In this document: positions 19,863 through 61,130 of the stretch, one piece after another
Layout: the number at the start of each line of letters is the position of its first letter
How positions within the stretch are numbered: position 1 is the first letter of the stretch
Assembly (NCBI GenBank): GCA_951394045.1
Contig: OX595986.1
Location: 4,555,534-4,619,533 of the forward strand
Direction: 5' to 3'
DNA length: 64,000 nt
Source of the DNA: Nitzschia sp. DOCU1
Taxonomy: Eukaryota > Bacillariophyta > Bacillariophyceae > Bacillariales > Bacillariaceae
Notes under the pieces: generated by a model
Databases searched by the model: none
Told to the model about the DNA's origin: nothing
The model's input: only the letters and a program-made list of their open reading frames with translations
Made by a program: the position numbers and the translations under genes

Positions 19863-22210
19863 ATGGCTGAAGCCCCAACAACGACGGAGCAGCCCAAGCT
19901 CCCCATCCCGCAGCTGATTGTCAAGGTGCGAAGATAAAATCCGAGTTGTGCTGATAGAACCCCTTGTCGTCGGTTGGCTCACCCCTTCGTCTTTTTATCT
20001 TTTCTGTGTTGATAGCACATCAAAGAATTCTTCGCTGGTCTTTCCATGACTGGAGGAGATTTGGGCTCTCTCTCCCAGCTTTTCTTTGATAACTTGTCGA
20101 CCTTGCTCGGAGCGTTGTTCGCCACTCAGGCCCTGACAACGTTTGGTGACATTGCTGTTTCCAAACAAACCATGGATGAATACGTCTGGGGAAAGATCGT
20201 TCCCGGTGTCGGAGTTACGCTACTTGCCGGAAACGTTTACTACTCCTGGATGGCGATCCGCTTGACAAACTCGTGTGGTCGTCAGTACACCGCTCAGCCC
20301 TAGTAAGTATCGCGATGACGACTGCATTTTCCTCATTTGGAGGTCCCCCCTGTCAGTTATCTCACTCGACGTTGTACCTGATTCTATGATCAACAGTGGT
20401 CTGAACACCCCCGCCGCCTTTGCCTTTGTCTTCAACGTAAGTTGCCAAAAAGTCGTATGCTCAAGAATGCTTTCCACCTGACGTCGTCTAACGCCGCCAC
20501 CGGGCCTACTTTGCAGATCATTTACGCTGTTTTCTTCGCCGAGGGGGGTGGGGATGAAGCTTTCATCAAGGGATACAAGGTTGCCCTTGCTGCCAACTTT
20601 ATCACTGGGCTTATCTCGGTTGTCCTCGGATGTTTCGGCCGTCTGATCCTCAAGGTTGTCCCTCCCGCCGCGCTGCTCGTACCCATTGCTGGTATCGGCT
20701 TTGCCTTCTTGGGTATCGAACAAGTCTCGTACAGTATTGCAGCTCCGATTGTTGGTTACTCTGCAATGATGTGGGTGTACTTGGGATGGTATGCCGGTGT
20801 CCGTGTTGGATTTGGAAACTGGCGCTGCCCCGAGGCCCTTCAAGTTATTTTGATCGGAGTAATCTTGGGATGGGCGACCGGTCTCAGTAAACCCGAAGAT
20901 GTCACTTCTGCCGCCAAGCTCGTCAAGTGGTGGGGTCCCACGTGGACTGCTGGAGACATGTTCAGTGATTTCGGCCTCGTCACGGATTACCTCGGTATTG
21001 TCATCCCAATCGGAATTAGTGCTGCTGCGACTACACTCATGTGTCTGGTGTCTGCGAAAGAAGCTGGGTAAGTAGATTGTGTGCCCCTGATTTGTTTCAC
21101 GTCGGTCGCCGATAATCGATCACTCTCTGACCGTCTACTCTGCATTTTCATCTGCGTCCATCAACATAGTGACCCTTTCCCGGTCCGCGAAACCATGATT
21201 GTCGACGGAATCGGGACCTGCATTGCGTCATTCTTTGGAAGCCCTTTCGGAACTGTCGTTTACATTGGTCACCCTGCTCACAAGGCCTCTGGTGCGAAGG
21301 TCGGATACTCGCTTGCCAACGGTTGCATTTATTTGTAAGTTGGGTTTCAGTTTGTTCTGGTTGCGTTCGCCTTACTGGCACATTGCTCACTTTTGCGATA
21401 CTTTGCAGCATCCTGTCCTGGTTCGGTGTTTTGGCCTTGATTCAATCCCTTGTCAACCAAGCTACCATCGGTCCAATTGTACTATTTGTTGGACTCATGG
21501 TCAACCAGGAAGCCTTGGACTTCATGCCCAGCCGCCACTACGCTGCCTACGTGATTGGTTTGTTCCCGTCTGTCTACGACTGGGTCACCAACGTTGCAGA
21601 TCGTGCTCCACTCACCAACGATGGCACATATAACACCAACTCTCCCGGAACAATGGGCTGGATTGGTGTGTTGGCGTGGAAGCGTGGCGCTCTATTGGTT
21701 TCTATGCTTTGGGTGGCGATGCTTGTCAACGTCATCGATCGGCAGTGGAAGATTGCGACTATTTGGGCCACCATTGCGGCTCTCTTTGCCTGCTTTGGTA
21801 TCATTCATGTACCCTCAGCTGGCTTCAAGAACTTCGATGCTCCGTTCTGGGAGCAGTGCGTTGAAGGACCAGATGGAACGGCGGAGTGCTGGGATTTCGC
21901 TGAACAGTGGATGTTCATGTTGTCGTACTTCGTTTTGGCCGGAACATTTACTCTCATTGGTTTCGCCGCCAAGTTTGACAGTACCATCGAAGAACCCATC
22001 GATGACGAATCTCGTCATGCTTTTGACGACTGGTTCAAGGAAGCCAAGATTGATACCACGGTGCACCGCAATAAGCGCATGTCTGTCGATGATGCCAATG
22101 CCATGAGCTCCGTTGATGCTGAGAAGATGTTGAATAACCTGAATAAGGCGAACGCGGAACCCGAAAAGTCGGAGGAATCCGACAAGGATGCTGCAATGGA
22201 GGAAGCTTAA
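19863..22210 (+). CDS. NCS2/AzgA-like permease, tandem copy 1
   Basis: Six exons (19863-19925, 20016-20302, 20397-20436, 20517-21067, 21170-21334, 21409-22210) join in frame to 635 residues. The protein is a multi-pass membrane transporter with many hydrophobic helices from about 25 to 550. The segment DGIGTCIASFFGSPFGTVVYIGHPA has the shape of the AzgA (hypoxanthine/guanine) and xanthine-uracil permease families, so a nucleobase or similar anion is the best-guess substrate. The tail from about 560 is charged and cytosolic (Glu/Lys/Ala-rich, with KRMS). All introns begin GT and end AG. This copy differs from copies 2 and 3 at several residues upstream of about 21555 and is nearly identical after that point. 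Confidence 0.8.
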
Positions 22211-23849
22211 TTCGCGCGTCTCCAAACCTGCAATTCTTTAGCAGGGCATCTTGTGACGCTCACAGCGCAGGCAGCAGAAATGTGATTTGCGTCTTTTTAT
22301 GTTTTTGATTTTGGATATTTTAATCGATTTGTATTGACGTTGTTGAGGCTTGTAGATCAGAGTAGTAACAGATGGTCACACTTTTTTCGAAGCCTCGAGC
22401 CGACACGTTCGGAGGTCTTCTTCTTCGCTTTGAAACGCGTTTCTGGGAGGAGAACCAACCATTATGACGCTAGCAGGGAAGACGCAAACTTCCATACGTC
22501 GTTGCTGTTGTCGCAAACTGGCTTTTCAGTTTTTTGGTCTTTCCTTGTCTATTTGAACAGCATTTCGGCCTTCATGCCGTGGCGCGCAATACATAGTAGT
22601 GGCATGGAACTATTCAGCCCCAATCGTCCGCAGCGCAGTGGTGCGGCTCCATCACATGCGCACGTAGTCGATCAACACCTTCACGTTCATTCTTCGTCGA
22701 TTTCGAATTGACAGGCTCGCATATTAGTCTTGGACTTGTTGAGCGAATCGGCAGTCGCCCTAGCATGGCGACTTCTTGGGGCCCTTGAAAGAATAACGGA
22801 GGTAAGATGTACATAAATTTAACCTCACTTTTGCTTAGAACAATCACCAGCAAGCAAATGTCGGGGTGGTCTGGAAATGCACTGGTTTCTAGCAATACTA
22901 GGAGCTTTTTGTGCTAAAAAGAATAGTTCCAGGGCTCACCGCCGGCATATCAGCATGATCAAAAGGAAAAAACTGGTACTTCAGGCAAAAGTGTGTGAGG
23001 TTTTCATGTTTTCTTCCGCCTCGCCGAGGAACAGAATTGAGGCCCCACTACGATACTTCCGCCTCGCCTCATCGAAGAATCTACTAGTAGTAGGGACTCC
23101 ACGACGACCGGTACCTGGTATGTTTCCCTCATAGTACGATACTAAACTGGACTATCGTTCTATGATAAGAATCCCAAATCCATGTGTGATGGAAAACAAT
23201 TATGTAGTGGGAATCAGGAGTGGTATACGTAGAAATGTGTAAGATTAATACTGCGACTCAATATTCTGCTATTTAAAAAATTCGACGTCTAGTCCTGGGG
23301 CATATTCGGAAGTGTTAAAAGGCTGCTTCAAATCCCCTACTAGAGTGTATGACACATCTTTGAGAAGACTGCAACAAGCGGTATCTTCCGAATTTTTTCA
23401 GGAAGAATGATCGCAATGTGGATCGTTGTACTAGAAAAGCGTATGGGATATCCCGTCTATGATCTTTTGACACTCGTCACGCTCTTTGCCGGGGTGAGTT
23501 GCTTCGAATCCCCTACTACGTACCGGTAGAATGTAAAACACACCTTTGTGAAGCGTGCAACTTCTTACACCCATTGCGGTATCTTCCGATTATTTTTTGG
23601 GAAGAATGGACCGAATTACATGCTCTCCTTTGATTTCACTTGTCGGCGCGCAAAACAAGGCTGAATCGTTCAACCAAAAGGGGATCCGTCGTGTTCTTTT
23701 GACTTTCGTCGCGAATCTCGCTGCTGGTTGCCGGGAAGGGGCGAGTTGCTTTTGCCAAAATCATCACACTTTTCCTGTTGTTGGATACCGACCATCACCT
23801 CTCTTTTCGGAAGAGCTTCAAAGTATTTCCCGCAACATTGTCATCCACC
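22211..23849. repeat. spacer between permease copies 1 and 2
   Basis: This 1.64-kb spacer is almost identical to 26193-27831. It begins with the permease 3' UTR, continues with non-coding DNA, contains a decayed importin-alpha tail (about 22855-23040), and ends with the promoter of copy 2. The promoter holds an internal direct repeat: 23325-23425 and 23505-23612 share CCCCTACTA, GCGGTATCTTCCGA and GGAAGAATG blocks. Open frames in it are simple copies of one another and do not look coding. Confidence 0.8.
22855..23040 (-). pseudogene. decayed 3' fragment of an importin-alpha gene (spacer 1)
   Basis: Read on the minus strand, it lines up with the last ~180 bp of the importin-alpha gene at 30880-31090. 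Shared blocks include GTCTGGAA...TGGTTTCTAG, CACCGCCGGC..ATCAGCA and GAGGTTTTC...CCGCCTCGCCGA. The intact gene reads GEAGIDDENLAPGT where this fragment reads GEAEENMK followed soon by a stop. Distance from the permease stop (about 650-700 bp) equals that at the intact locus, so it is a co-duplicated neighbour tail. Confidence 0.65.
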
Positions 23850-26192
23850 ATGGCTGAAGCCCCAACAACGACGGAGCAGCCCAAGCTCCCCCTCCCGCAG
23901 CTGATTGTCAAGGTACGAAGATCATATCTGAGTTTTATCGCAAGGACCCCTTGTGGTCGGTTGGCTCACCCCTTCGTCTTTTTATCTTTTCTGTGTTGAT
24001 AGCACATCAAAGAATTCTTCGCTGGTCTTTCCATGACTGGAGGAGATTTGGGCTCTCTCTCCCAGCTTTTCTTTGACAACTTGTCGACCTTGCTCGGAGC
24101 TTTGTTCGCCACTCAGGCCCTGACAACGTTTGGTGACATTGCTGTTTCCCAACAAACCATGGATGAGTACGTCTGGGGAAAGATTGTTCCTGGTGTGGGA
24201 GTTACGCTATTTGCCGGAAACGTTTACTACTCTTGGATGGCGATCCGCTTGACAAACTCGTGTGGTCGTCAGTACACCGCTCAGCCCTAGTAAGTATCGC
24301 GATGACGACTGCATTTTCCTCATTTGGAGGTCCCCCCTGTCAGTTATCTCACTCGACGTTGTACCTGATTCTATGATCAACAGTGGTCTGAACACCCCCG
24401 CCGCCTTTGCCTTTGTCTTCAACGTAAGTTGCCAAAAAGTCGTATGCTCAAGAATGCTTTCCACGTGATGTCGTCTGATCCGCAAACGAACCTACTTTGC
24501 AGGTCATTTACGCAATTTTTTTCGCCGAGGGGGGTGGCGATGAAGCTTTCATCAAGGGATACAAGGTTGCCCTTGCTGCCAACTTTATCACTGGGCTTAT
24601 CTCGGTTGTCCTCGGATGTTTCGGCCGTCTGATCCTCAAGGTTGTCCCTCCCGCCGCGCTGCTCGTACCCATTGCTGGTATCGGCTTTGCCTTCTTGGGT
24701 ATCGAACAAGTCTCGTACAGTATTGCAGCTCCGATTGTTGGTTACTCTGCAATGATGTGGGTGTACTTGGGATGGTATTCCGGTGTCCGTGTTGGATTTG
24801 GAAACTGGCGCTGCCCCGAGGCCCTTCAAGTTATTTTGATCGGAACGATCTTGGGATGGGCGACCGGTCTCAGTAAACCCGAAGACGTCACTTCTGCCGC
24901 TAAGCTCGTCAAGTGGTGGGGTCCCACCTGGACTGCTCGAGAAATGTTTGAGGATTTCGGCCTCGTCACGGACTACCTCGGTATTGTCATCCCAATCGGA
25001 ATTAGTGCTGCTGCGACTACACTCATGTGTCTGGTGTCTGCGAAGGAAGCGGGGTAAGTAGATTATGTGCCCCTGATTTGTTTCACGTCGGTCGCCGATA
25101 ATCGATCACTGACCGTCTACTCTGCATTTTCATCTGCTTCCATCAACATAGTGACCCTTTCCCGGTCCGCGAAACCATGATTGTCGACGGAATCGGGACC
25201 TGCATTGCGTCATTCTTTGGAAGCCCTTTCGGAACTGTCGTTTACATTGGTCACCCTGCTCACAAGGCCTCTGGTGCGAAGGTCGGATACTCGCTCGCCA
25301 ACGGCATCATTTATTTGTAAGTTGGGTTTCTGGTTGTTCTGGTTGCGTTCGCCTGAGTTGCATATTGCTCATTTTTGCGATACTTTGCAGCATCATGTCC
25401 TGGGTTGGTCTTTTAGCCTTGATTCAATCCCTTGTCAACCAAGCTACCATCGGTCCAATTGTGCTATTTGTTGGACTCATGATCAACCAGGAAGCCTTGG
25501 ACTTCATGCCCAGCCGCCACTACGCTGCCTACGTGCTTGGTTTGTTCCCGTCTGTCTACGACTGGGTCACCAACGTTGCAGATCGTGCTCCACTCACCAA
25601 CGATGGCACATATAACACCAACTCTCCCGGAACAATGGGCTGGATTGGTGTGTTGGCGTGGAAGCGTGGCGCTCTATTGGTTTCTATGCTTTGGGTGGCG
25701 ATGCTTGTCAACGTCATCGATCGGCAGTGGAAGATTGCGACTATTTGGGCCACCATTGCGGCTCTCTTTGCCTGCTTTGGTATCATTCATGTACCCTCAG
25801 CTGGCTTCAAGAACTTCGATGCTCCGTTCTGGGAGCAGTGCGTTGAAGGACCAGATGGAACGGCGGAGTGCTGGGATTTCGCTGAACAGTGGATGTTCAT
25901 GTTGTCGTACTTCGTTTTGGCCGGAACATTTACTCTCATTGGTTTCGCCGCCAAGTTTGACAGTACCATCGAAGAACCCATCGATGACGAATCTCGTCAT
26001 GCTTTTGACGACTGGTTCAAGGAAGCCAAGATTGATACCACGGTGCACCGCAATAAGCGCATGTCTGTCGATGATGCCAATGCCATGAGCTCCGTTGATG
26101 CTGAGAAGATGTTGAATAACCTGAATAAGGCGAACGCGGAACCCGAAAAGTCGGAGGAATCCGACAAGGATGCTGCAATGGAGGAAGCTTAA
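23850..26192 (+). CDS. NCS2/AzgA-like permease, tandem copy 2
   Basis: Six exons (23850-23912, 24003-24289, 24384-24423, 24503-25053, 25152-25316, 25391-26192), 635 residues, with the same exon sizes as copy 1. Compared with copy 1 it has, among others, Leu for Ile in PKLPLPQ, Gln for Lys in VSQQTMD, Phe for Leu in TLFAGN, Ser for Ala in WYSGVRV and REMFEDFG for GDMFSDFG. Compared with copy 3 I find a single coding difference: Val here, Ile there, at the first codon of exon 4. Intact reading frame and splice sites suggest it is expressed. Same transporter assignment as copy 1. Confidence 0.8.
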
Positions 26193-27831
26193 TTCGCGCG
26201 TCTCCAAACCTGCAATTCTTTAGCAGGGCATCTTGTGACGCTCACAGCGCAGGCAGCAGAAATGTGATTTGCGTCTTTTTATGTTTTTGATTTTGGATAT
26301 TTTAATCGATTTGTATTGACGTTGTTGAGGCTTGTAGATCAGAGTAGTAACAGATGGTCACACTTTTTTCGAAGCCTCGAGCCGACACGTTCGGAGGTCT
26401 TCTTCTTCGCTTTGAAACGCGTTTCTGGGAGGAGAACCAACCATTATGACGCTAGCAGGGAAGACGCAAACTTCCATACGTCGTTGCTGTTGTCGCAAAC
26501 TGGCTTTTCAGTTTTTTGGTCTTTCCTTGTCTATTTGAACAGCATTTCGGCCTTCATGCCGTGGCGCGCAATACATAGTAGTGGCATGGAACTATTCAGC
26601 CCCAATCGTCCGCAGCGCAGTGGTGCGGCTCCAGCACATGCGCACGTAGTCGATCAACACCTTCACGTTCATTCTTCGTCGATTTCGAATTGACAGGCTC
26701 GCATATTAGTCTTGGACTTGTTGAGCGAATCGGCAGTCGCCCTAGCATGGCGACTTCTTGGGGCCCTTGAAAGAATAACGGAGGTAAGATGTACATAAAT
26801 TTAACCTCACTTTTGCTTAGAACAATCACCAGCAAGCAAATGTCGGGGTGGTCTGGAAATGCACTGGTTTCTAGCAATACTAGGAGCTTTTTGTGCTAAA
26901 AAGAATAGTTCCAGGGCTCACCGCCGGCATATCAGCATGATCAAAAGGAAAAAACTGGTACTTCAGGCAAAAGTGTGTGAGGTTTTCATGTTTTCTTCCG
27001 CCTCGCCGAGGAACAGAATTGAGGCCCCACTACGATACTTCCGCCTCGCCTCATCGAAGAATCTACTAGTAGTAGGGACTCCACGACGACCGGTACCTGG
27101 TATGTTTCCCTCATAGTACGATACTAAACTGGACTATCGTTCTATGATAAGAATCCCAAATCCATGTGTGATGGAAAACAATTATGTAGTGGGAATCAGG
27201 AGTGGTATACGTAGAAATGTGTAAGATTAATACTGCGACTCAATATTCTGCTATTTAAAAAATTCGACGTCTAGTCCTGGGGCATATTCGGAAGTGTTAA
27301 AAGGCTGCTTCAAATCCCCTACTAGAGTGTATGACACATCTTTGAGAAGACTGCAACAAGCGGTATCTTCCGAATTTTTTCAGGAAGAATGATCGCAATG
27401 TGGATCGTTGTACTAGAAAAGCGTATGGGATATCCCGTCTATGATCTTTTGACACTCGTCACGCTCTTTGCCGGGGTGAGTTGCTTCGAATCCCCTACTA
27501 CGTACCGGTAGAATGTAAAACACACCTTTGTGAAGCGTGCAACTTCTTACACCCATTGCGGTATCTTCCGATTATTTTTTGGGAAGAATGGACCGAATTA
27601 CATGCTCTCCTTTGATTTCACTTGTCGGCGCGCAAAACAAGGCTGAATCGTTCAACCAAAAGGGGATCCGTCGTGTTCTTTTGACTTTCGTCGCGAATCT
27701 CGCTGCTGGTTGCCGGGAAGGGGCGAGTTGCTTTTGCCAAAATCATCACACTTTTCCTGTTGTTGGATACCGACCATCACCTCTCTTTTCGGAAGAGCTT
27801 CAAAGTATTTCCCGCAACATTGTCATCCACC
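26193..27831. repeat. spacer between permease copies 2 and 3
   Basis: Near-identical repeat of 22211-23849, shifted by 3982 bp; one visible difference is GCACATGCG here against TCACATGCG in the first spacer. It holds the same permease 3' UTR, decayed importin-alpha tail and duplicated promoter block. Confidence 0.8.
26837..27022 (-). pseudogene. decayed 3' fragment of an importin-alpha gene (spacer 2)
   Basis: Second copy of the fragment in the first spacer, 3982 bp downstream and essentially identical to it. It shares the same stop and the same loss of the DDENLAPGT segment, so it decayed before the most recent duplication. Confidence 0.65.
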
Positions 27832-30174
27832 ATGGCTGAAGCCCCAACAACGACGGAGCAGCCCAAGCTCCCCCTCCCGCAGCTGATTGTCAAGGTACGA
27901 AGATCATATCTGAGTTTTATCGCAAGGACCCCTTGTGGTCGGTTGGCTCACCCCTTCGTCTTTTTATCTTTTCTGTGTTGATAGCACATCAAAGAATTCT
28001 TCGCTGGTCTTTCCATGACTGGAGGAGATTTGGGCTCTCTCTCCCAGCTTTTCTTTGACAACTTGTCGACCTTGCTCGGAGCTTTGTTCGCCACTCAGGC
28101 CCTGACAACGTTTGGTGACATTGCTGTTTCCCAACAAACCATGGATGAGTACGTCTGGGGAAAGATTGTTCCTGGTGTGGGAGTTACGCTATTTGCCGGA
28201 AACGTTTACTACTCTTGGATGGCGATCCGCTTGACAAACTCGTGTGGTCGTCAGTACACCGCTCAGCCCTAGTAAGTATCGCGATGACGACTGCATTTTC
28301 CTCATTTGGAGGTCCCCCCTGTCAGTTATCTCACTCGACGTTGTACCTGATTCTATGATCAACAGTGGTCTGAACACCCCCGCCGCCTTTGCCTTTGTCT
28401 TCAACGTAAGTTGCCAAAAAGTCGTATGCTCAAGAATGCTTTCCACGTGATGTCGTCTGATCCGCAAACGAACCTACTTTGCAGATCATTTACGCAATTT
28501 TTTTCGCCGAGGGGGGTGGCGATGAAGCTTTCATCAAGGGATACAAGGTTGCCCTTGCTGCCAACTTTATCACTGGGCTTATCTCGGTTGTCCTCGGATG
28601 TTTCGGCCGTCTGATCCTCAAGGTTGTCCCTCCCGCCGCGCTGCTCGTACCCATTGCTGGTATCGGCTTTGCCTTCTTGGGTATCGAACAAGTCTCGTAC
28701 AGTATTGCAGCTCCGATTGTTGGTTACTCTGCAATGATGTGGGTGTACTTGGGATGGTATTCCGGTGTCCGTGTTGGATTTGGAAACTGGCGCTGCCCCG
28801 AGGCCCTTCAAGTTATTTTGATCGGAACGATCTTGGGATGGGCGACCGGTCTCAGTAAACCCGAAGACGTCACTTCTGCCGCTAAGCTCGTCAAGTGGTG
28901 GGGTCCCACCTGGACTGCTCGAGAAATGTTTGAGGATTTCGGCCTCGTCACGGACTACCTCGGTATTGTCATCCCAATCGGAATTAGTGCTGCTGCGACT
29001 ACACTCATGTGTCTGGTGTCTGCGAAGGAAGCGGGGTAAGTAGATTATGTGCCCCTGATTTGTTTCACGTCGGTCGCCGATAATCGATCACTGACCGTCT
29101 ACTCTGCATTTTCATCTGCTTCCATCAACATAGTGACCCTTTCCCGGTCCGCGAAACCATGATTGTCGACGGAATCGGGACCTGCATTGCGTCATTCTTT
29201 GGAAGCCCTTTCGGAACTGTCGTTTACATTGGTCACCCTGCTCACAAGGCCTCTGGTGCGAAGGTCGGATACTCGCTCGCCAACGGCATCATTTATTTGT
29301 AAGTTGGGTTTCTGGTTGTTCTGGTTGCGTTCGCCTGAGTTGCATATTGCTCATTTTTGCGATACTTTGCAGCATCATGTCCTGGGTTGGTCTTTTAGCC
29401 TTGATTCAATCCCTTGTCAACCAAGCTACCATCGGTCCAATTGTGCTATTTGTTGGACTCATGATCAACCAGGAAGCCTTGGACTTCATGCCCAGCCGCC
29501 ACTACGCTGCCTACGTGCTTGGTTTGTTCCCGTCTGTCTACGACTGGGTCACCAACGTTGCAGATCGTGCTCCACTCACCAACGATGGCACATATAACAC
29601 CAACTCTCCCGGAACAATGGGCTGGATTGGTGTGTTGGCGTGGAAGCGTGGCGCTCTATTGGTTTCTATGCTTTGGGTGGCGATGCTTGTCAACGTCATC
29701 GATCGGCAGTGGAAGATTGCGACTATTTGGGCCACCATTGCGGCTCTCTTTGCCTGCTTTGGTATCATTCATGTACCCTCAGCTGGCTTCAAGAACTTCG
29801 ATGCTCCGTTCTGGGAGCAGTGCGTTGAAGGACCAGATGGAACGGCGGAGTGCTGGGATTTCGCTGAACAGTGGATGTTCATGTTGTCGTACTTCGTTTT
29901 GGCCGGAACATTTACTCTCATTGGTTTCGCCGCCAAGTTTGACAGTACCATCGAAGAACCCATCGATGACGAATCTCGTCATGCTTTTGACGACTGGTTC
30001 AAGGAAGCCAAGATTGATACCACGGTGCACCGCAATAAGCGCATGTCTGTCGATGATGCCAATGCCATGAGCTCCGTTGATGCTGAGAAGATGTTGAATA
30101 ACCTGAATAAGGCGAACGCGGAACCCGAAAAGTCGGAGGAATCCGACAAGGATGCTGCAATGGAGGAAGCTTAA
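27832..30174 (+). CDS. NCS2/AzgA-like permease, tandem copy 3
   Basis: Six exons (27832-27894, 27985-28271, 28366-28405, 28485-29035, 29134-29298, 29373-30174), 635 residues. It is copy 2 displaced by exactly 3982 bp with almost no changes. The repeat breaks down about 120 bp after the stop, near 30300, where the unique flank leading to importin-alpha begins. Same transporter assignment as copy 1. Confidence 0.8.
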
Positions 30175-30905
30175 TTCGCGCGTCTCCAAACCTGCAATTC
30201 TTTAGCAGGGCATCTTGTGACGCTCACAGCGCAGGCAGCAGAAATGTGATTTGCGTCTTTTTTATGTTTTTGATTTTGGATATTTTAATCGATTTGTATT
30301 GACTTGTTGAGGGCTTGTAGATTGAGTAGCCGCATGATGCTGTATGAATTGAAAGTGTTCAGCTTTTGCTTTGAGAAGTCATCGATAGGGCGCGGCACCC
30401 TTTGAGTGTGGCTTTTCGCCAGATGCACCAAGAGCGTTTTCGCGCAGATGGAAGCACGGAGTCTGCACATACGGACGGTCGGTCGCAGAATCAAACCTGT
30501 GACTGCCAGGTGACCGTCTCTTAGCTCCGTCCTTTCAAGGTCAACAATGACACACAAAGGGCGGCCACTAGTGCCACCAGCATCACGTTGCTTGTTGTGG
30601 GGTGGCCACAGATTCCTGTCTCTACTACTACAACAATAACTTTTGAAAACTAGGAGTACCATAGCTATTACAAGATTTTCATTGCTTCAATTTCTTTCTG
30701 CTGCATTCAAGGGAACGTCCGATTCTAGCATGCCGAAGATGTATATATGTGACGAGAATAATGATCTAAGTCTCAGTTTAATTCGGTTAGCTAAATCTCT
30801 GGTGGTGGTGTTCAGCTTAGCTCGGCTATCCTCGTAGGAATCCCGATGTATGTACGCCATCCCGGTGGCATTTAGCAGCAGGTGAATGTCGTCTGGAAGT
30901 GGTTT
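30175..30905. other. region between permease copy 3 and importin-alpha
   Basis: The first 120 bp match the permease 3' UTR of the other copies; then the sequence is unique. It holds the 3' ends of two convergent genes and no coding frame that I can support. Confidence 0.5.
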
Positions 30906-48117: not shown

Positions 48118-48542
48118 TGCAGATATTTACACCTTGACAGTCTCAGACATCAATCGAAAGCCTTATTGCAATAAACCTCTAAGAGTTGAAGAGTAACGAT
48201 AGCATTCGGGGCTTCGTTTTAGTGATGGTGGTGTGCCGCTATCATCGCTGTCCCATCGCCGACAGAACGAAAACGAAGGGAAAGAAGGCTCACGAGAGGT
48301 GGGGCCAGCGCGCTCGAACGGATAGTACGTGAACGATGGTCGAATGGGTCGCACTAATTTTGATCAGATGGGTCGTTTTCAAATGACCCGAAATCTCGAG
48401 AACTTGCATCCACACACAAGAAGGAAAAGACTCAAGCTCGTTTTGTTACTACAGTCGTTCAACATGTCTGGATGGTTGCTCCAAGATCGATCAGACTGAT
48501 ACTGAATGTTCAATAAAAGCATTTGGCATCGGCAACTGGGAA
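48118..48542. promoter_or_regulatory. divergent promoter, hydrolase / sulfotransferase
   Basis: 425 bp between divergent start codons. No specific element was recognised. Confidence 0.4.
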
Positions 48543-49970
48543 ATGCCACAGGATGCTGTCAGTTGGATCACCCCGCGGCGTCTCTATCTTGTTTTCGTTG
48601 TGAGTGTCATCATCGCGGCATGTTCCGTTGGCCAGTCCATGATGGGACGATTGTCAGTGCAACTTTTTGGGAATGATCAAGGGGGTTCGGCTTCACTGCT
48701 GGAACCAATAATCTTGAATCGACAGCACAATCATACTGCAACGAACATCACGGGGGACTCGTTGCACCAGTTGCCAGAATCAACGCCCGTAGTACCAAGC
48801 TGGGCCACTCTGGCCGAGCCCCATCTGAACGAGACAAGATTACTGCAAACGGGGCACTTTGACCGCATCGCTGCATCCTTAGCACGAGCATATCCTGACC
48901 ACAATTCGCCCGAAATCTGTACCTTGAGACGCCTGGAACGTGCCCCCAAAAATTCGACCTATGCATACTTACAACCGGTGGAAGGCTTGTTTTATAACAA
49001 GGTTCCAAAAGCAGCTTCGAGTACATTGGCAGGAATCAATTTGAGAATCGCCTTGCATTGGGGGCATCGTTTACATGCTGCTGGCTTACCGGGAAACACA
49101 ACTCTTGGCTGGGATACTGCCTGCACACGCAAGCAAGCTCATGTGATTGGGGCAGGACAGTACTATGGCAATCGAGCACCACAACAAAGCTTCTTGTGGG
49201 GATCTATTCGAGATCCAGCGGCACGAGCCCTAAGTCGAATTTATTTTTATCATATTTCTCAAGCGGGACTTCCTGATATTGATAGAATGATTCTCAAGCT
49301 TTTGCAAAAGGCTTTCAATCCACAGAGTGGGACGGTCACCAAGGGCAAGGGGGGGTTCCAACTTTGCTATTTGACCTTGGAACCGGAACTAGAGGATTGG
49401 TTTTTCTACAGACGACGATTCCCCACTATCGTAGAGCGAATCGATGTGCTCCAAGAACGAGTTCGCAATGTCATACAACAATACGATTTTCTGGCTGTAA
49501 CGGAACGTATGGACGAATCGATTGTGGCATTGCAGCTCATTCTCGGCCTTCGTATGGGCGATGTGCTATCGGCGTCTTCGGCCAAGACCGGGGGGGGCTT
49601 TTACTTCCAGGCCAAGCCGGATCGGTGCATTCCGATCCAAAAGACGAAGCGTTCTCCAGCGGTCAACGAATACTTGGAATCGGATGAATGGCAGGCGATT
49701 ACGGCAGGTGACTATCTCTTGTATGCTGCCGCGAATCAAAGCCTTGACTTGACCATTCATCGTTTGGGTAGGAAGCGCTTCGATCGAGCATTACAGATGT
49801 ATCGAGACGCGCAACGTATCATTGGGGAAGAGTGTGCTTCGGAAACCTATCTGCCTTGTTCCGACAACGGCACGGTTCAAATCGCACTTTCTGCCTCCAA
49901 TTGCTACAGTAATGACGAGGGATGCGGTTATGCTTGCATTGATCGGCTTGTCCAAGAGAGAGGGTGGTGA
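48543..49970 (+). CDS. Golgi-type sulfotransferase-like membrane protein
   Basis: Single exon, 475 residues, ATG at 48543. One membrane span at about 14-33 after a short tail makes it a type II protein. NKVPKAASSTLAG near residue 150 is the 5'-phosphosulfate-binding loop of carbohydrate sulfotransferases (K-V-x-K-x-x-S-T). WGSIRDPAARALSRIYFY near 220 is the 3'-phosphate-binding motif (R-D-P-x-x-R-x-x-S). It would therefore move sulfate from PAPS to a glycan in the Golgi. Eight cysteines in the second half, several near the end (CASETYLPC, CYSNDEGCGYAC), suggest a disulfide-stabilised luminal C-terminus. Sulfated polysaccharides are common in diatom walls and mucilage, which fits, but the acceptor is not known. 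Confidence 0.8.
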   Translation: MPQDAVSWITPRRLYLVFVVSVIIAACSVGQSMMGRLSVQLFGNDQGGSASLLEPIILNRQHNHTATNITGDSLHQLPESTPVVPSWATLAEPHLNETRLLQTGHFDRIAASLARAYPDHNSPEICTLRRLERAPKNSTYAYLQPVEGLFYNKVPKAASSTLAGINLRIALHWGHRLHAAGLPGNTTLGWDTACTRKQAHVIGAGQYYGNRAPQQSFLWGSIRDPAARALSRIYFYHISQAGLPDIDRMILKLLQKAFNPQSGTVTKGKGGFQLCYLTLEPELEDWFFYRRRFPTIVERIDVLQERVRNVIQQYDFLAVTERMDESIVALQLILGLRMGDVLSASSAKTGGGFYFQAKPDRCIPIQKTKRSPAVNEYLESDEWQAITAGDYLLYAAANQSLDLTIHRLGRKRFDRALQMYRDAQRIIGEECASETYLPCSDNGTVQIALSASNCYSNDEGCGYACIDRLVQERGW

Positions 49971-50355: not shown

Positions 50356-53300
50356 TCAGACTTGTGATTCCCGGAAGGATCCTGAAACCTCATCGGCACG
50401 TTTTTGGACGTCGTTGAAATTGAATCTTTTCGAACGCATAGCATTAATTAAGGACGATCGCCGCCGTCCTACTTCTCGAGTCATCGCCTCTCGCTTTCTT
50501 TTCACTGAAACTTTGAACTTGATGTTACCGATATACTTGCCGTCCTTCACCAAGCGCTCTTCAATTGACAATGTACGTTCTTCCATTTCTCCATTGACGG
50601 TGGGGACCATGTTCATCGCTGAGCCTAGCAAGTCTTTCACGTTCAGCACGACCGTGCCCAGAAAATCGTGGCGTCCAAGAACCTTCTCGTAGTTCATCAC
50701 TGCTACAAAGATCATGCCGTCTTCAAACAAAAAAGTCTGCTTCAACCCCAGCGTGATACTCTCGCCCTTCCAATATGGATTCATAGTCTTCGGGATGTAG
50801 TCAGTACGCGGCCAACTCTTTCCTTTCCACAACTCCCGTAGAAAATCCCAGGCGTCCTTATTTTCAGCGTACAAAGGTGCTCCATCCCAAAGAAGCATAA
50901 CGTACGGATCAGCCTTGCCGTGAGTGCTGATATTGATTGCAGGCAAATCGGAGCACCGAATCTTGTGAAACTCAAAAGTAGTATCCGAATCGACGCGCAG
51001 CGTGTCCAAATCTTGATTGGGCATGACACAAAAGGCACCGCGGATGGGCTTGTGGTCCGATGTTATGAAGTCGGGGCAGGCTTCATAGGAGAGGGCCTTC
51101 AAGTGGTCCTTCAGTCCAGGAGACGACCGAAACAGGATTCGGTCCGTCCAGCTAGGAATACGTTGGCCCTTGTAGTTGATACCAGGTTCTCGCTCCACCT
51201 TGAACGTCGGTTGGAAAGGACACATCAGGGTTTGAAAGCCGGCAAGGAAATCTTCATTCTTCAGTCCCTGCTGCAACTCGTCCAACGAGTAGAGAGTCGA
51301 CAATGCGCCTGACTCAATAAGGGCCTTGGCCGAGGCCACGTTCTCTTCATGAGAATGCTTGTTTTCGAAACGAGTTCGAAAGTTCAAGTCGCCCAGGAAG
51401 AAAGTATGATGACTCGAGGTTCCTACGTCAAACTTCGAAGATAACTCGTACGTCTTGGCTTCTCGAAGGATGGATCGAATATTGTCGCAACGAGCCTTGT
51501 AGTACGAGTCGCCTTCATGGGCCGCCAAGTGTGCCGTCACAAACGAAATGCGCGTCTTCTTGAAATAAACTGTGGCGACGATTCCCCCCTTGTTGGCCAA
51601 CATGTTACCAATACCCGTATTGGCCCCACTGATCTTGACATCGATTACATTCTTGGCGACATGTCGCGTGGCCCACAAATGAAGTCTCATCTGGCCTCGC
51701 CGCTCGTCACAAATTTGAAAGTAGTTGTCTCCCAATACATTTTGCACCATTTCTCGTAGTTGTGCAGTATTGGCCTCTTCCAACGCATTCAGTACTTCTT
51801 CCTCGGTAATCTCCGCGCTCTTGGTCGACGACGCTCGAAGATTGGATTCACTCCATGTGGCCTCTTGCATTCCGATCGCGATCAATCCAAACGTTTGGAA
51901 GAAATCCAGATTGGGAGGACTCATGTCTTCTTCCAATGGCTGGAGATAGTCACAGTTGCCGCCGGGAGGAATCCAGGCTTCCAATGATTCAGGCGTCGGT
52001 GCCTTGTTCCCCAAGTTGGCCGAGCACACCAAAATTGGAAGCGCCTTCGGTAGGAATCGGACAGAACCCAAATTTTGTACATCTTCAGTCTCGGCAATAG
52101 ACGATGCTCTTGCCACCGTCGATGAAAGCATTCCTGGTTTGTAGGCGTTAGGGGCTTGACGCGCAGCAAGCACCTTCGGGACCACGTAGATACACATTGC
52201 CGCCAAGCTATCCAAGCTGAAAACGAGACTCATCATCGTTTGGGTGACGCTGGAAGGGAAAGTCTCTTGAATATAGAAGATTGCCGTCACCCCACGCAAG
52301 CAAACGAACAAGGAGTGGGAGTAGACCATAACAGCCAAACTCTTAGATTCGTTCAACTGCGCCATGACGGCTCGACCCTGAAAGGCCAAAAATGCAGCAA
52401 GAATCAAAAGAATCGCTTGCCAGGCAAAGGTGAACAGCCGCCAAGCCTCGCTGTTTGAAGCGCATCTGAAATCGTATTCCACAACGGCGCCATCTTCTCC
52501 CGATGTCTCAAGTGACCGACTCTCTTTTGGCTCAGAAGGATCTATAATTGTCCAAGCAGTCATAAACGCCACAACGAATGCAACGATCACGACTACCTTC
52601 AGTATCATGGCCCGTCGTTTAACTTGAATCCGTTTCTGGTTTTTGGCGTAGGATCGAACCAACTGGTTGATCTTTGACGTCTTGACTAGAACGGGCACCA
52701 GCTCGATGGTGTATCCCAACATCAACAGCCACACAGAAGCCATACAGAAGGTGTCTTGAGGTTCCATGGTAGTCAACACAGCCCCGGCGCATATCAGTAA
52801 GAAGCCCATCAAAATGAATTCGAGGAATACCGGCTGCGCAAATACCATAGCTTTGGTATTGCGATGTCTGTAGACAGCGAAGAGAAGCCAAATAGCAATA
52901 CCGCCCACAACATAAGCCACAATTCGGGCCGTGAGCAAGTACCACGCCTTGAAATCACTGCGAGACTTTAAATCTCGGGGATACCCTTTCGGGATTGCGC
53001 TCTTTAGAGACCCGAGATTCGCTTGCACCCATCCACAAACGGCAGCTCGGGCGTCATTCCCCATCGGATCCACATTGGTAGCTTTCCAGGCCCGAATAAT
53101 CGCATTCATTTCTAAGGTAGTTATCTGAATGTTCTTGATGAACTCATATGCCGGCGATTGATCCACGTCCGGCAACGTAGAGGTATGCTCTGGCACGGCG
53201 TGGGCAATCAAGCGTTGCAACGCTTGGGTATCAAGCGCACAAGACGCGATACTGCTATTGCCTCGTCTCACATCATACGATGGATCGCAACGGGCGGCCG

Positions 53301-54651
53301 AGTCCGGTCGTGCCACCAAGCATTCAACTGTAGCAGCTGGAAGCGTAATGTGCAAAAACTCATAGTCGGACCCTTGAAATGCTGCAAAAAGTGGCACGAG
53401 ATCGAACCAGGTCAAAATGATATGACTACGAGTGGCATTTGCGGCTTGGTATATTTGAGTCATTTGCGATTCAGTGTATCCACCCACCGGCTTCACCGGT
53501 CCATCGCGGGATAAACCCAGGATATTGTTCCAGTACAGTTGTGCGTCAATTGGCGCCGACCACGTACAGGGCCCTGTCACAATGTGACCAGTACAAGTGT
53601 TGGGGTTCAGAGTGCAATTGTTGGCATCCGTAGCATAAAAATATCCAGTGTACAAGCCTTCGGCAAAGTACAAATCGTCTTCGGGTTCCGTGGGAAAGCG
53701 GGCCGCGGTCTCGGTAGCCTCCTGACATCGCGTCTCAGAGACATTCCGGCAATAGTCCACCCACGACATCGGTCGTAGAAACGTCTCAGCTAGAAGCTGC
53801 CGATTTTCTTCTCCCGCCATTCCATACCAAAAGCCAAGCTGAGGAACTTCACGCGCGGTTCGGGATGGGACGTAGAAACCCGATCGTCCTAGCAATCCGT
53901 TGCCCGATGACGGTTCGATTGTCCGATTCAGTATCAAGGGTGTATACTCTGTGATTTGCCCCTCCCATACTTCGGGTAAGATGTCAACACACGGAGCTGT
54001 CTTATTCGAACAATCGTTGCGTTTTCGCTCGTTGACAGTGGTTTTTTGCTCTTGGCGGTTTTCAGGGATACCCGCCGCAGCGTTGGCTTGCCCCAAGGCA
54101 TGATAGGGATAAGCTTCTTGGGAGTAGATGAATTCGTTGTCTTGGCTGTAAAAGCTAGCCATGGGAGTATGCGATGAGTTGAATCCTACGGTCGATGGAA
54201 CATGCACCAGTTCAGATAGTACAATTTGATAAATCCACGCCAAAATGAACGAGGATTCCCAGTTGGCATTATGAATGCGAATCTCAGGATACAAATCATT
54301 AAATTTCGAGAGTATGCAGTTCTCAGAGGTGTTTTCGATGATTCCCCCTTTGTCGTTCTTCTTCATGAACCTAATCTCATCCGAGTTGCACACTCTCTTG
54401 GGAAATTTAGCATCCTTTTCACCATCTTCGTCCATTATCAGGCCAGTCAAACACCCCTGTTGAAATGGATTCGAACACTTCTTCGTTTCAGGCAAGCACA
54501 CGGTTGTGGGTAACTTGTACAAGGCTTGACAATCAGCGTCGGTTTCGCACGACACCGATGCTTTGGCCATTTTAAAATGGCGAAGCCCAAAAAAACTAAT
54601 CCAAAAAATCATTTTGGACGAGCAGCAAATCCATTTCCTGGAAGTAAGCAT
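50356..54651 (-). CDS. class C GPCR fused to inositol-polyphosphate 5-phosphatase and C2 domain
   Basis: One uninterrupted exon of 1431 residues, ATG at 54651. Residues about 1-560 are an extracellular part with many Asn glycosylation sites and paired cysteines, preceded by a hydrophobic start. Seven membrane spans lie between about 565 and 833, with class C features such as the TMEPQDTFCMASVWLLMLGYT segment and a YVVPK seventh helix. The cytosolic part is an inositol-polyphosphate 5-phosphatase, about 870-1210: NKGGIVATVYF, TAHLAAHEG, GDLNFR near 1087, PSWTDRIL near 1165 and SDHKPI near 1200 carry the metal-binding and catalytic residues. A C2 domain (KADPYVMLLWDG, NPYWKGE) fills about 1218-1390. 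The protein should sense an outside ligand and remove 5-phosphates from phosphoinositides or inositol phosphates at the membrane. Confidence 0.9.
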   Translation of the reverse strand: MLTSRKWICCSSKMIFWISFFGLRHFKMAKASVSCETDADCQALYKLPTTVCLPETKKCSNPFQQGCLTGLIMDEDGEKDAKFPKRVCNSDEIRFMKKNDKGGIIENTSENCILSKFNDLYPEIRIHNANWESSFILAWIYQIVLSELVHVPSTVGFNSSHTPMASFYSQDNEFIYSQEAYPYHALGQANAAAGIPENRQEQKTTVNERKRNDCSNKTAPCVDILPEVWEGQITEYTPLILNRTIEPSSGNGLLGRSGFYVPSRTAREVPQLGFWYGMAGEENRQLLAETFLRPMSWVDYCRNVSETRCQEATETAARFPTEPEDDLYFAEGLYTGYFYATDANNCTLNPNTCTGHIVTGPCTWSAPIDAQLYWNNILGLSRDGPVKPVGGYTESQMTQIYQAANATRSHIILTWFDLVPLFAAFQGSDYEFLHITLPAATVECLVARPDSAARCDPSYDVRRGNSSIASCALDTQALQRLIAHAVPEHTSTLPDVDQSPAYEFIKNIQITTLEMNAIIRAWKATNVDPMGNDARAAVCGWVQANLGSLKSAIPKGYPRDLKSRSDFKAWYLLTARIVAYVVGGIAIWLLFAVYRHRNTKAMVFAQPVFLEFILMGFLLICAGAVLTTMEPQDTFCMASVWLLMLGYTIELVPVLVKTSKINQLVRSYAKNQKRIQVKRRAMILKVVVIVAFVVAFMTAWTIIDPSEPKESRSLETSGEDGAVVEYDFRCASNSEAWRLFTFAWQAILLILAAFLAFQGRAVMAQLNESKSLAVMVYSHSLFVCLRGVTAIFYIQETFPSSVTQTMMSLVFSLDSLAAMCIYVVPKVLAARQAPNAYKPGMLSSTVARASSIAETEDVQNLGSVRFLPKALPILVCSANLGNKAPTPESLEAWIPPGGNCDYLQPLEEDMSPPNLDFFQTFGLIAIGMQEATWSESNLRASSTKSAEITEEEVLNALEEANTAQLREMVQNVLGDNYFQICDERRGQMRLHLWATRHVAKNVIDVKISGANTGIGNMLANKGGIVATVYFKKTRISFVTAHLAAHEGDSYYKARCDNIRSILREAKTYELSSKFDVGTSSHHTFFLGDLNFRTRFENKHSHEENVASAKALIESGALSTLYSLDELQQGLKNEDFLAGFQTLMCPFQPTFKVEREPGINYKGQRIPSWTDRILFRSSPGLKDHLKALSYEACPDFITSDHKPIRGAFCVMPNQDLDTLRVDSDTTFEFHKIRCSDLPAINISTHGKADPYVMLLWDGAPLYAENKDAWDFLRELWKGKSWPRTDYIPKTMNPYWKGESITLGLKQTFLFEDGMIFVAVMNYEKVLGRHDFLGTVVLNVKDLLGSAMNMVPTVNGEMEERTLSIEERLVKDGKYIGNIKFKVSVKRKREAMTREVGRRRSSLINAMRSKRFNFNDVQKRADEVSGSFRESQV

Positions 54652-58791: not shown

Positions 58792-61130
58792 CTACTTCTT
58801 CACAAGTTTGTACATTCCATCCGGTCCGCATTCGAGCTTGTCCTGCTTGCAGAGGTGTTGCAGCAGTCGACTGAGTTGCTGCGGAGTCTTGTTGTACTTG
58901 ATATCAGAACCTGTGACAAACATCTTGAGAGTATTGTGGATGCGTTCCAGTGGCAATTGACCATGTGTGTTCAACATTCCACAAATATAACTTTCGTATA
59001 TGGCAAGGTCCTCTTCTTCTTGCGCTGCGACCGATACAGCCTGTGAATGGTGCCCGTCTTCGTCCATAGGCACAGAATGATCGCCATCTCCCCCTGCCAA
59101 TAGATACTCGCGGGTCGCAACGACATACGTAGATGGGGGATGCAACTGCAAGACTCTGTGACCGATCCAATACCCCATCCGTTTCTGGATTACGTGCTCG
59201 GGTATGCCCGTCTCATTCGACAGCTCTTCAGCAGTCCATTCGTCCTTGTCCTCAAAGTGCGAGATCAAAGTTGCTAACAATGGCGCCACAGTAAAATCGC
59301 GAGTCTCGACTGTAGTCGTCCCATCCTCGGATTCCTCAAGGACATCTAGTTCAAGTTGAACCGTTCCGAGTTGGTTGAGCCACACCAGTCGACGAGGATT
59401 TTTAAGTCGAGCATATTCTGCGCCAAATCGATCCAAGCCAGCTTGAAGGCGTGGGTGGTGCTTGAACTGCTCGTTTTGCAGGGCAGGCCAGAAAATATGC
59501 GAGACAATAGCGGCATCAACAATTGTAGGATCTTGAGCATCGGCTTCGTCTGGTTGCAACTGTTGTCGATGGCGCTCTTTGGCTTGCAGAGTAGTGTGGA
59601 TATTGGTGACGACACGTTTACTATCGTCCGTATCCTTGATCATGATTTCGCAATTGCGCATGCTAAGTTCACCGAAGCGCAACTTGAGCAGCTCGAGCGT
59701 GTGGACTTCCTTGTCGGTATTGAAATCCAAATTCGCCAGCAGCTTGTCCGCCAACATGAGTCGGTACTCATTGACAAAGAGTTCTTTGCTGCCATAGATA
59801 CTAACCAGCATGGAAAGAATATCGCCGCCGTTTCCGCTGCTACCTCCACCCAAACCGATGTTGGCAAAGAATCCGCTCTTTTGTTTGCTGATGGGAGGTG
59901 GAGGCTGCCATTCGAAAGTGGGTTCTTCCTCTTCGTCGTCAGAATCTGCAGCATTGTGTTCGAGTGGCTTTGCGTCTTGCCGTCGCAATTCTTCGTAGAG
60001 TTCTCCGCCTACTTCGGCATCCGTCAAACTTGTAATGATGCATCGAACGGTATTGTGACGGCGACGTAAATAGCTGCGCACTGGTTCGGCCACCACTTGC
60101 AAGAGTCGATCTGACGGATCGATTTCTCGCAACACCCGGATCGTGTTGATATAAACATCAATGATTTGATGAGTTCCCGCACCAGGATGATTCAAGCGTC
60201 GAATCAAACTTTCTTTCAGTGCTTCTCCCAATGAGGAATGCATCTTTGTCTGTTCTAGAACTTGCTTAAGTTCAATGACAGCGGGATGAGAATCCGGATA
60301 ATCCGCCACCAACTCGAAGATTTCTTCGTTGCGAACCAAACAATAGCACTCGGCGCAAGTAAACTGTATCTTGAGTGTCCATTCATCTTCCTCAAATCGT
60401 TCAGCGCCTACACAATCTTGTAGCCAGGGAAGAACCACCGTCTCCTGATACTCTTTCACTTGCTGGAACAGACCCTCGGATTCAAAGTCCTTGGAAATAG
60501 TAACCCGGACCCAGTTCAGAATAGTATCGTGCAAGGCGGCGCCTAGAGGTTGCTGCAAGAATCCCTGAGGACGGATCCACCCCAAAAGTCTCAAGTTGCG
60601 AAAAAATGTCAATTCTTTCTCGTCCTTGGACTCGTCCCCCGGCGCATCCTGTCGGGCCACCAAAGAACGCTGAAACAGTTTTTGAAAGGAGCGAAGTAAC
60701 TGCACGTCAGCTCGAGCCATAATCGCAGCCGTCATGCACTGGCGACGAGATTCTTTCGGGTCTGATGAAAAGGAACAAGCCAGTTCTGGGGATTCATTCT
60801 CAGCATTCTATTTCACAGTAAGAAAATACAAAGTAGCATCGATGAGAAAGCGAATCATTGGCCTTGTTAGGCGGCAAGCCCTGCTTCGCATTCAGCATTC
60901 GAACAAAAACTAAAACTCACCCATCCCTCAAGAACCCCACAAAGCCAATCAACGCGTTCCGGCAATGCTTTCCAATTCATCGAGGGTCGCTTCGTGGATG
61001 CATCATCGTCGGGCATGCCCAAAAACTGCAGGGCAGCCATTGTGGATGGACGGGTCTCAAAGGCATTCATTCGCTCTTGCGCCTGGTTCCATCGCTCTTC
61101 ATAAGTCGCAACATGGATCGAATTCGACAT
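58792..61130 (-). CDS. APC2: anaphase-promoting complex subunit 2 (APC2)
   Basis: Two exons, 61130-60921 and 60807-58792, with a 113-bp GTGAGT...TAG intron, give 741 residues. The cullin-homology region covers the second half: DILSMLVSIYGSKELFVNEYRLMLADKLL near 330-360 (start DILSMLVS) is the APC2 version of the cullin core, followed by LKLRFGE and ISHFEDKDEW. The C-terminal winged helix (from ICGMLNTHG to the end YKLVKK) is complete; it binds the RING subunit APC11. An acidic DSDDEEEE run and a Gly-rich loop are inserts near 290-320. APC2 is the cullin-like core of the ubiquitin ligase that drives anaphase and mitotic exit. Divergent from DCN1. Confidence 0.9.

Follow-up and report, generated by a model that had tools for sequence, protein, structure and literature searches.

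Can a seven-helix receptor control an enzyme that it carries on its own polypeptide? For the so-called GPCR-bigrams, whether a G-protein-coupled receptor (GPCR) drives its covalently attached enzyme free of G proteins is an open question (PMC6033456; papers given by PMC number are cited throughout for excerpts only). A gene of the diatom Nitzschia sp. DOCU1 raises the same question. It lies in the window analysed here, a stretch of 64,000 nucleotides (assembly GCA_951394045.1, contig OX595986.1, positions 4,555,534 to 4,619,533; coordinates below are those of the window), and it encodes a class C receptor, an inositol-polyphosphate 5-phosphatase and a C2 domain in a row. We find that this fusion is a conserved family in which one phosphatase-C2 module stands behind unrelated receptor heads. 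Taken as a whole, it is rather probably best explained as an osmolyte-sensing class C receptor that controls a tethered SHIP-like 5-phosphatase-C2.

A conserved receptor-phosphatase fusion

The gene runs on the minus strand, from an ATG at 54651 to a stop codon at 50356-50358. Its single open frame, 1440 codons from stop to stop and 1431 amino acids from the first ATG, has no internal stop and requires no intron, and the plus strand has many stops over 50356-54651. A preliminary description of this DNA had given exactly these limits, leaving the strand unstated. Its central claim, a fusion of the three parts in one open frame, is borne out: Pfam profiles match 7tm_3 at residues 578-826 (113.3 bits, cut-off 33.5), Exo_endo_phos2/IPPc at residues 918-1204 (155.8 bits, cut-off 27) and C2 at residues 1227-1342 (32.5 bits, cut-off 22). 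The assignment of the seven-transmembrane (7TM) part to class C agrees with both the 7tm_3 score and the fold, and a sequence search places this part nearest to GABA-B2 among solved structures. The catalytic motifs that had been listed, GDLNFR, PSWTDRIL and SDHKPI, are all there, and 19 of the 21 active-site positions checked are invariant across 52 aligned rows. Right about the fusion, that reading had overlooked that the ectodomain is OpuAC-like, that phosphatase and C2 form a SHIP-like pair, how wide the family is, and that receptor heads have been exchanged.

Receptors joined to such enzymes have a precedent in the GPCR-INPP bigrams, reported from oomycetes and elsewhere only from Nannochloropsis (van den Hoogen et al. 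2018, PMC5784254; review PMC6033456). Like them, the window protein has a 7TM receptor ahead of an inositol polyphosphate phosphatase within a single polypeptide; compared by description, it differs in that its 7TM part belongs to class C and follows a large OpuAC-like ectodomain, and in having a C2 domain after the phosphatase, in a SHIP-like pair.

The Nitzschia genome (52 Mb in 63 contigs) contains three copies of the fusion, all on contig C2: the window gene, L017 (86% identical to it) and L018 (50% identical), the latter two also single open frames with the whole architecture. The alignment of the window gene with L017 is limited to the coding region, and the flanks do not align. Between these two, the Nei-Gojobori ratio of nonsynonymous to synonymous substitution (dN/dS), taken per domain with at least 180 codons in each of the four, was 0.33 for the ectodomain, 0.30 for the 7TM domain, 0.11 for IPPc, 0.22 for C2 and 0.28 for the whole gene; against L018 synonymous sites were saturated. 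All parts are under purifying constraint, the phosphatase most and the sensor least. Because two paralogues of the same genome keep the architecture in single frames, and because dN/dS is low, the fusion goes beyond chance.

Both 7tm_3 and IPPc were also found in 57 other proteins (P0002-P0058) among the best 120 of 167 protein-search matches. Fused relatives came from NCBI, JGI, ENA, EukProt and MMETSP, transcripts included, and the named sources among the matches listed include Seminavis robusta, Cylindrotheca closterium, C. fusiformis, Nitzschia sp. Nitz4 and a Bacillariaceae metagenome-assembled genome, sources which we take to be raphid diatoms. Our own domain profiles detected both domains in 69 retrieved proteins besides the window protein, partial ones counted, and 49 and 51 of the 57 relatives are included in our alignments A1 and A2. 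The receptor-phosphatase fusion is thus a conserved family. Could it nevertheless be an artefact, with two adjacent genes joined by read-through or by a faulty assembly? Chimeras do occur among gene models and metagenome contigs, and P0007, with an extra transporter domain (PF07690), looks merged. However, the single open frame is found at three loci of one assembly, the relatives come from all the databases named above, the domains are under constraint and the linkers are similar in length, which makes this explanation very improbable. The preliminary description had named two separate transcripts as a finding that would speak against a fusion; single MMETSP transcript open reading frames (P0033, P0044 and P0055) span the join, an answer that holds for the family and not for the window gene itself.

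Two database entries deserve mention. P0029, one of the fused proteins of Seminavis robusta, appears in public databases under the name '72 kDa inositol polyphosphate 5-phosphatase', which covers the phosphatase alone and leaves the receptor half hidden and unnamed. P0217, a JGI metagenome fragment, is 97% identical over 64% of an IPPc-C2 query, which indicates that the window species or a close one is present in a public metagenome.

Receptor heads in front of the phosphatase-C2 tail

The window protein belongs to the larger of two main fused types, type A. A second type, B (P0041-P0058), has the phosphatase-C2 part in common with it, the remainder being unlike: the type-B rows measured are 15-21% identical to the window protein in the 7TM domain and 15-19% in the ectodomain, and in five type-B proteins identity climbs to 35-75% over residues 880-1239. 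This rise from residue 880 puts the border between the types within the linker. The ectodomains differ in kind as well, with a Cache-type match in all 13 type-B proteins scanned (over the cut-off in one, P0054) and a value of 0.18% when the type-B and window-type ectodomains are compared as profiles. A third head is carried by P0040, which has a sub-threshold SBP_bac_3 match and is a single metagenome contig, possibly chimeric. In 39 type-A proteins the receptor and phosphatase domain models lie 43-75 residues apart, in 18 type-B proteins 49-71 residues, and both types occur in Cylindrotheca closterium and in C. fusiformis.

Separate phylogenies of the two halves, as proposed in the preliminary description, support common descent for one of them only: the phosphatase parts form one clade and the 7TM parts do not. 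The clean phosphatase tree comprised 63 of the 212 extracted rows (32 of the 41 of type A, 14 of the 18 of type B, P0040 and 16 unfused ones), leaving out 12 other, mostly partial, fused rows. In it the fused phosphatases are a single clade (100/99) and that of P0040 nests in type A (83/86); outside the clade stand diatom-type IPPc-C2 proteins without 7TM, and in the majority of them the N-terminus lies 28-50 residues ahead of the domain. In the clean 7TM tree (58 of 142 rows), by contrast, type A (99/97) lies beside unfused P0123, a receptor found via its ectodomain (100/98); type B (94/96) lies with L001, an unfused receptor of the Nitzschia genome that ends about 110 residues past the 7TM part, without phosphatase (100/100); and P0040 groups with unfused L002, L003, L005, L006 and L007 (100/98). 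Each of the three head types has unfused 7TM relatives in this genome. The approximately unbiased (AU) test rejects a single 7TM clade of types A and B (p = 2.3e-5), as well as one of A, B and P0040 (p = 0.0016); these p values are optimistic, the groups having been chosen after seeing a tree, and long branches separate the heads.

Larger trees added some exceptions. In the phosphatase tree of 143 of the 212 rows, the fused clade (SH-aLRT 98) includes 16 of the 71 rows labelled unfused. Among the seven of these whose front ends were examined, P0218 begins within helix 7 and P0223, P0232, P0241 and P0243 begin at or inside the phosphatase domain, all five resembling fragments, and P0236 (a transcript) and P0249 were not so assigned. 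Some of the unfused-labelled rows inside the clade may be truly separate phosphatases. In the 7TM tree of 109 of the 142 rows, a single unfused row, P0130, falls inside type A, and its C-terminus looks frameshifted by eye.

One phosphatase clade with separate 7TM clades implies that a phosphatase-C2 gene became fused with a class C receptor, after which either the head was replaced or the join repeated. The same tail stands behind two unrelated class C receptors, and probably behind a third, the heads being OpuAC-like, Cache-like and SBP_bac_3-like. Such use of the same enzyme behind unrelated receptors in related diatoms suggests sensors that are plugged into one signalling output. On a broader view, on which our judgement is evenly balanced, raphid diatoms would possess a modular system, in which repeated fusion or head replacement would have coupled one SHIP-like phosphatase/C2 output with three or more unrelated class C receptors bearing bacterial-type heads, and through which solutes, perhaps dimethylsulfoniopropionate (DMSP) and betaines, would cause direct local loss of 5-phosphoinositides. 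If true, this would be a eukaryotic counterpart to the sensor swapping of bacterial chemoreceptors and sensor kinases.

The exchange of heads also bears on a simpler explanation, in which the 7TM part is mainly an anchor and the protein a membrane-bound 5-phosphatase with little sensing. The phosphatase is indeed the most constrained part (dN/dS 0.11 against 0.33 for the ectodomain), but purifying selection acts on the ectodomain and 7TM domain too, their cysteines, aromatic and coupling residues are kept, and the heads have been exchanged for other complete receptors; we regard a mere anchor as improbable.

A diatom GPCR-phosphatase fusion is named in the excerpts of neither PMC7335047 nor PMC9694693, and our literature search for one, with most subscription journals and preprints outside its coverage, turned up none among the entries listed. 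The GPCR-INPP fusion and OpuAC-headed class C receptors (see below) are each already in print; it is the evolutionary pattern that is unusual here.

The ectodomain and its putative ligand

What would the window receptor sense? A profile of 132 ectodomains, compared by hhalign with 11 pooled bacterial OpuAC-type proteins, matched them with a probability of 95.7% over 285 columns (score 71.8; template positions 39-324 of 335). Thirty column shuffles scored at most 21.8, and values below 0.3% were obtained with the profiles of IPPc, 7TM and C2. The 95.7% is obtained from the pooled set only, subgroups of the 11 proteins taken singly giving 0.2%, 66% and 84%. Pfam scans of 21 ectodomain rows gave a match to OpuAC (glycine-betaine-binding) in seven, with E values up to 1, and the ectodomains of P0202 and P0210 exceed the curated OpuAC cut-off, across stretches of 69-76 residues. 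A fold search with the model had its match list filled by the 7TM part; a PDB profile search with the ectodomain gave one weak match, 7YLE (E 0.035), which is RnDmpX, a DMSP-binding protein whose ligand is held by a cage of four tryptophans (PMC10030565).

Candidate counterparts of this cage can be pointed out in the ectodomain alignment. Two conserved tryptophans align with cage residues of DmpX (Table 1). Column 416, Phe416 in the window protein, holds W in 71, Y in 35 and F in 17 of 131 rows, hence an aromatic residue in 123, and aligns with the tryptophan of the Y-x-W-x-P stretch of ProX-type proteins, a third member of the cage; W364 (W in 118 of 131 rows), gapped in the alignment, may be the fourth. 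From these profiles the ectodomain is likely to be an OpuAC-like clamshell, for which a cationic osmolyte is a plausible ligand. It resembles OpuAC-type betaine/DMSP-binding proteins (RnDmpX, 7YLE) in its near full-length profile match and aligned aromatics, and differs from them in its size of about 500 residues, its added cysteine-rich parts and its attachment to a receptor. Such a head supplies a concrete ligand hypothesis (betaine, choline or DMSP) for orphan diatom receptors, and would connect phosphoinositide signalling in algae with the marine osmolyte/DMSP economy.

ANF_receptor, the type I flytrap of GABA-B and mGlu receptors, was not matched in Pfam scans of the window protein, which is like these class C receptors in its 7TM fold and coupling residues, and unlike them in its OpuAC-like ectodomain and enzymatic tail. 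A Cache/mGlyR-type ectodomain was also considered for the window gene and rejected, the Cache-type matches among the fused proteins scanned belonging to type B. Of the papers cited next, PMC3251606 is Krishnan et al. 2012 and PMC3727952 is Port et al. 2013. In the fungus Allomyces macrogynus, OpuAC is reported ahead of 7tm_3 in six receptors of the glutamate family, the order in which the window protein has its OpuAC-like and 7TM parts; compared by description, an enzymatic tail is not mentioned in the excerpt (PMC3251606). Cache_1 has been reported in Thalassiosira pseudonana TP_7830, a glutamate-family receptor (PMC3251606), and three P. tricornutum class C receptors are described with N-termini like those of (sugar) ATP-binding cassette transporters, Cache 1 being named in Figure 4 (PMC3727952). 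The statement of a 2025 survey that Cache was detected in no non-metazoan GPCR (PMC12716839) sits ill with both reports. The unfused diatom class C receptors share the 7TM class of the window protein, but their C-termini resemble no known protein (PMC3727952).

Enzymatic output and G-protein coupling

Among solved structures, a sequence search places the phosphatase nearest to INPP5B, with INPP5E and SHIP close. The modelled phosphatase and C2 domains superpose jointly on human SHIP1/SHIP2 over about 400-430 residues (20-22% identity), so that the pair, in tandem as in those proteins, models like human SHIP1/2; the window protein differs from them in that a Pfam scan detected no SH2 domain and in that the module is tethered behind a 7TM receptor. 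Since PIP5K and PI-PLC matches are present in the genome, phosphatidylinositol 4,5-bisphosphate (PI(4,5)P2) and, more tentatively, the trisphosphate PI(3,4,5)P3 are plausible substrate lipids. PI3Ka had one match, and a search of the genome for PI3K_C2 gave none, but its positive control gave none either.

How the parts might act together we infer as follows. The receptor would sit in the plasma membrane, where its clamshell would bind a small extracellular solute, most likely a betaine- or sulfonium-type osmolyte (glycine betaine, choline or DMSP). Binding would close the clamshell and rearrange a class C 7TM dimer; this change would in turn control the phosphatase-C2 module, which follows helix 7 after some 40-75 residues and would lie at the inner leaflet, and the phosphatase would strip the 5-phosphate of PI(4,5)P2 and/or PI(3,4,5)P3 near the receptor. 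G-protein signalling may run alongside this output.

Several observations weigh against an osmolyte-sensing, enzyme-controlling receptor: (i) a ProX-only profile, and E. coli ProX alone, gave 0.2% against the ectodomain profile; (ii) the Pfam scan of the window ectodomain itself returned no family, hence no OpuAC match; (iii) the score is negative over the stretch that aligns Trp131 with Trp35, and Glu113, the acidic residue by which DmpX contacts its ligand, corresponds to a variable column; (iv) the linker of P0040 is longer, at 130 residues; (v) the SHIP-like packing, taken from an AlphaFold model, may reflect training on SHIP; and (vi) the class C coupling residues of fused receptors are as in unfused ones.

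The coupling residues named for class C are two basic residues of helix 3, an acidic residue of helix 6 and the PK motif of helix 7 (PMC3727952). Type-A fused rows keep K657, E/D768, P825 and K826, each in 41 of 41, and the equivalent sites of 83 unfused receptors hold K/R in 83, E/D in 79, P in 81 and K in 80. In type B, K, D and P are found in 16 of 16 rows and the PK lysine is replaced by R in 14 of 16. The second basic residue, at the end of helix 3, can be placed only tentatively; position 660 is K in the window protein and basic in 9 of 41 type-A rows, the unfused receptors being alike. C636 and C730, invariant in 50 rows, presumably form the disulfide between helix 3 and loop 2.

With coupling residues like those of unfused receptors, the protein can be read in other ways than as an enzyme under receptor control, and the bypass of G proteins that the preliminary description had proposed is not borne out, the genome also having a G-alpha (one match over the cut-off). 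The main rival, with a smaller yet real chance, is that the receptor uses G-alpha in the ordinary way and that the tethered phosphatase is constitutive, a local remover of PI(4,5)P2 that shapes or ends phospholipase C signalling and not an output switched by ligand. The class C signature, kept in the fused types much as in the 83 unfused receptors, fits this, as do the G-alpha match and five PI-PLC-X matches. One module on different heads and similar linkers in the two main types suggest receptor control instead, although constitutive tethering also fits them. The same tail on different natural heads makes the question of whether a GPCR drives its attached enzyme testable, and head swaps in the laboratory could mimic evolution.

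The genome has at least 59 7tm_3 matches (exon pieces, hence a lower bound), many class C receptors per one G-alpha match. L045 128-3895 (genome C11:781700-786000), a further class C receptor frame, of 1256 amino acids, ends in a DEP domain (62.3 bits) and represents another combination of receptor and signalling domain in this genome; DEP domains occur in the oomycete GPCR-TKL bigrams (PMC5784254). L044 1046-5200 (genome C6) also has a class C receptor frame, no shorter than 1385 amino acids, whose long post-7TM region is without Pfam match.

Table 1. Features of the receptor-phosphatase gene, in window coordinates
Feature	Coordinates	Strand	Remarks
Whole gene, 1431-aa receptor-phosphatase	50356..54651	-	Single open frame, stop codon included
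Putative signal peptide, hydrophobic N-terminus, residues 1-30	54562..54651	-	Judged by eye from the sequence
Ectodomain, residues 31-565, likely OpuAC-like type II substrate-binding fold, cysteine-rich	52957..54561	-	hhalign profile match
Trp131, aligned with DmpX Trp35	54259..54261	-	W in 128/129 ectodomain rows; weak alignment
Trp229, aligned with DmpX Trp84	53965..53967	-	W in 131/132 rows
Trp415-Phe416 aromatic pair	53404..53409	-	Column 415 W in 123/131
Class C seven-helix domain, residues 578-826	52174..52920	-	Pfam 7tm_3
Linker, residues 836-870	52042..52146	-	Identity to the other fused type begins directly after it
Inositol-polyphosphate 5-phosphatase domain, residues 871-1212	51016..52041	-	
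GDLNFR motif, residues 1087-1092	51376..51393	-	D, N, R invariant in 52/52 rows
PSWTDR motif, residues 1166-1171	51139..51156	-	P, D, R invariant in 52/52 rows
SDHK motif, residues 1198-1201	51049..51060	-	All four residues invariant in 52/52 rows
C2 domain, residues 1213-1395	50467..51015	-	In the model, packed against the phosphatase in the manner of SHIP1/2
Tail, residues 1396-1431	50359..50466	-	Low confidence in the model; pLDDT (predicted local confidence) <50 from residue 1394

An Rfam scan of the window gave no match. The neighbours of the receptor gene are an APC2/cullin gene (58792-60807, minus strand) and a weakly matching Gal-3-O-sulfotransferase-like gene (48387-49970, plus strand), and we saw no functional link of these two to the receptor. 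Further off, at 21170-30180, a unit of 3982 bp stands in almost identical head-to-tail repeats, with the same 345-codon frame at 21173, 25155 and 29137; its product looks by eye like a multi-span membrane protein and has no Pfam match. The repeat is either a recent amplification or an effect of assembly.

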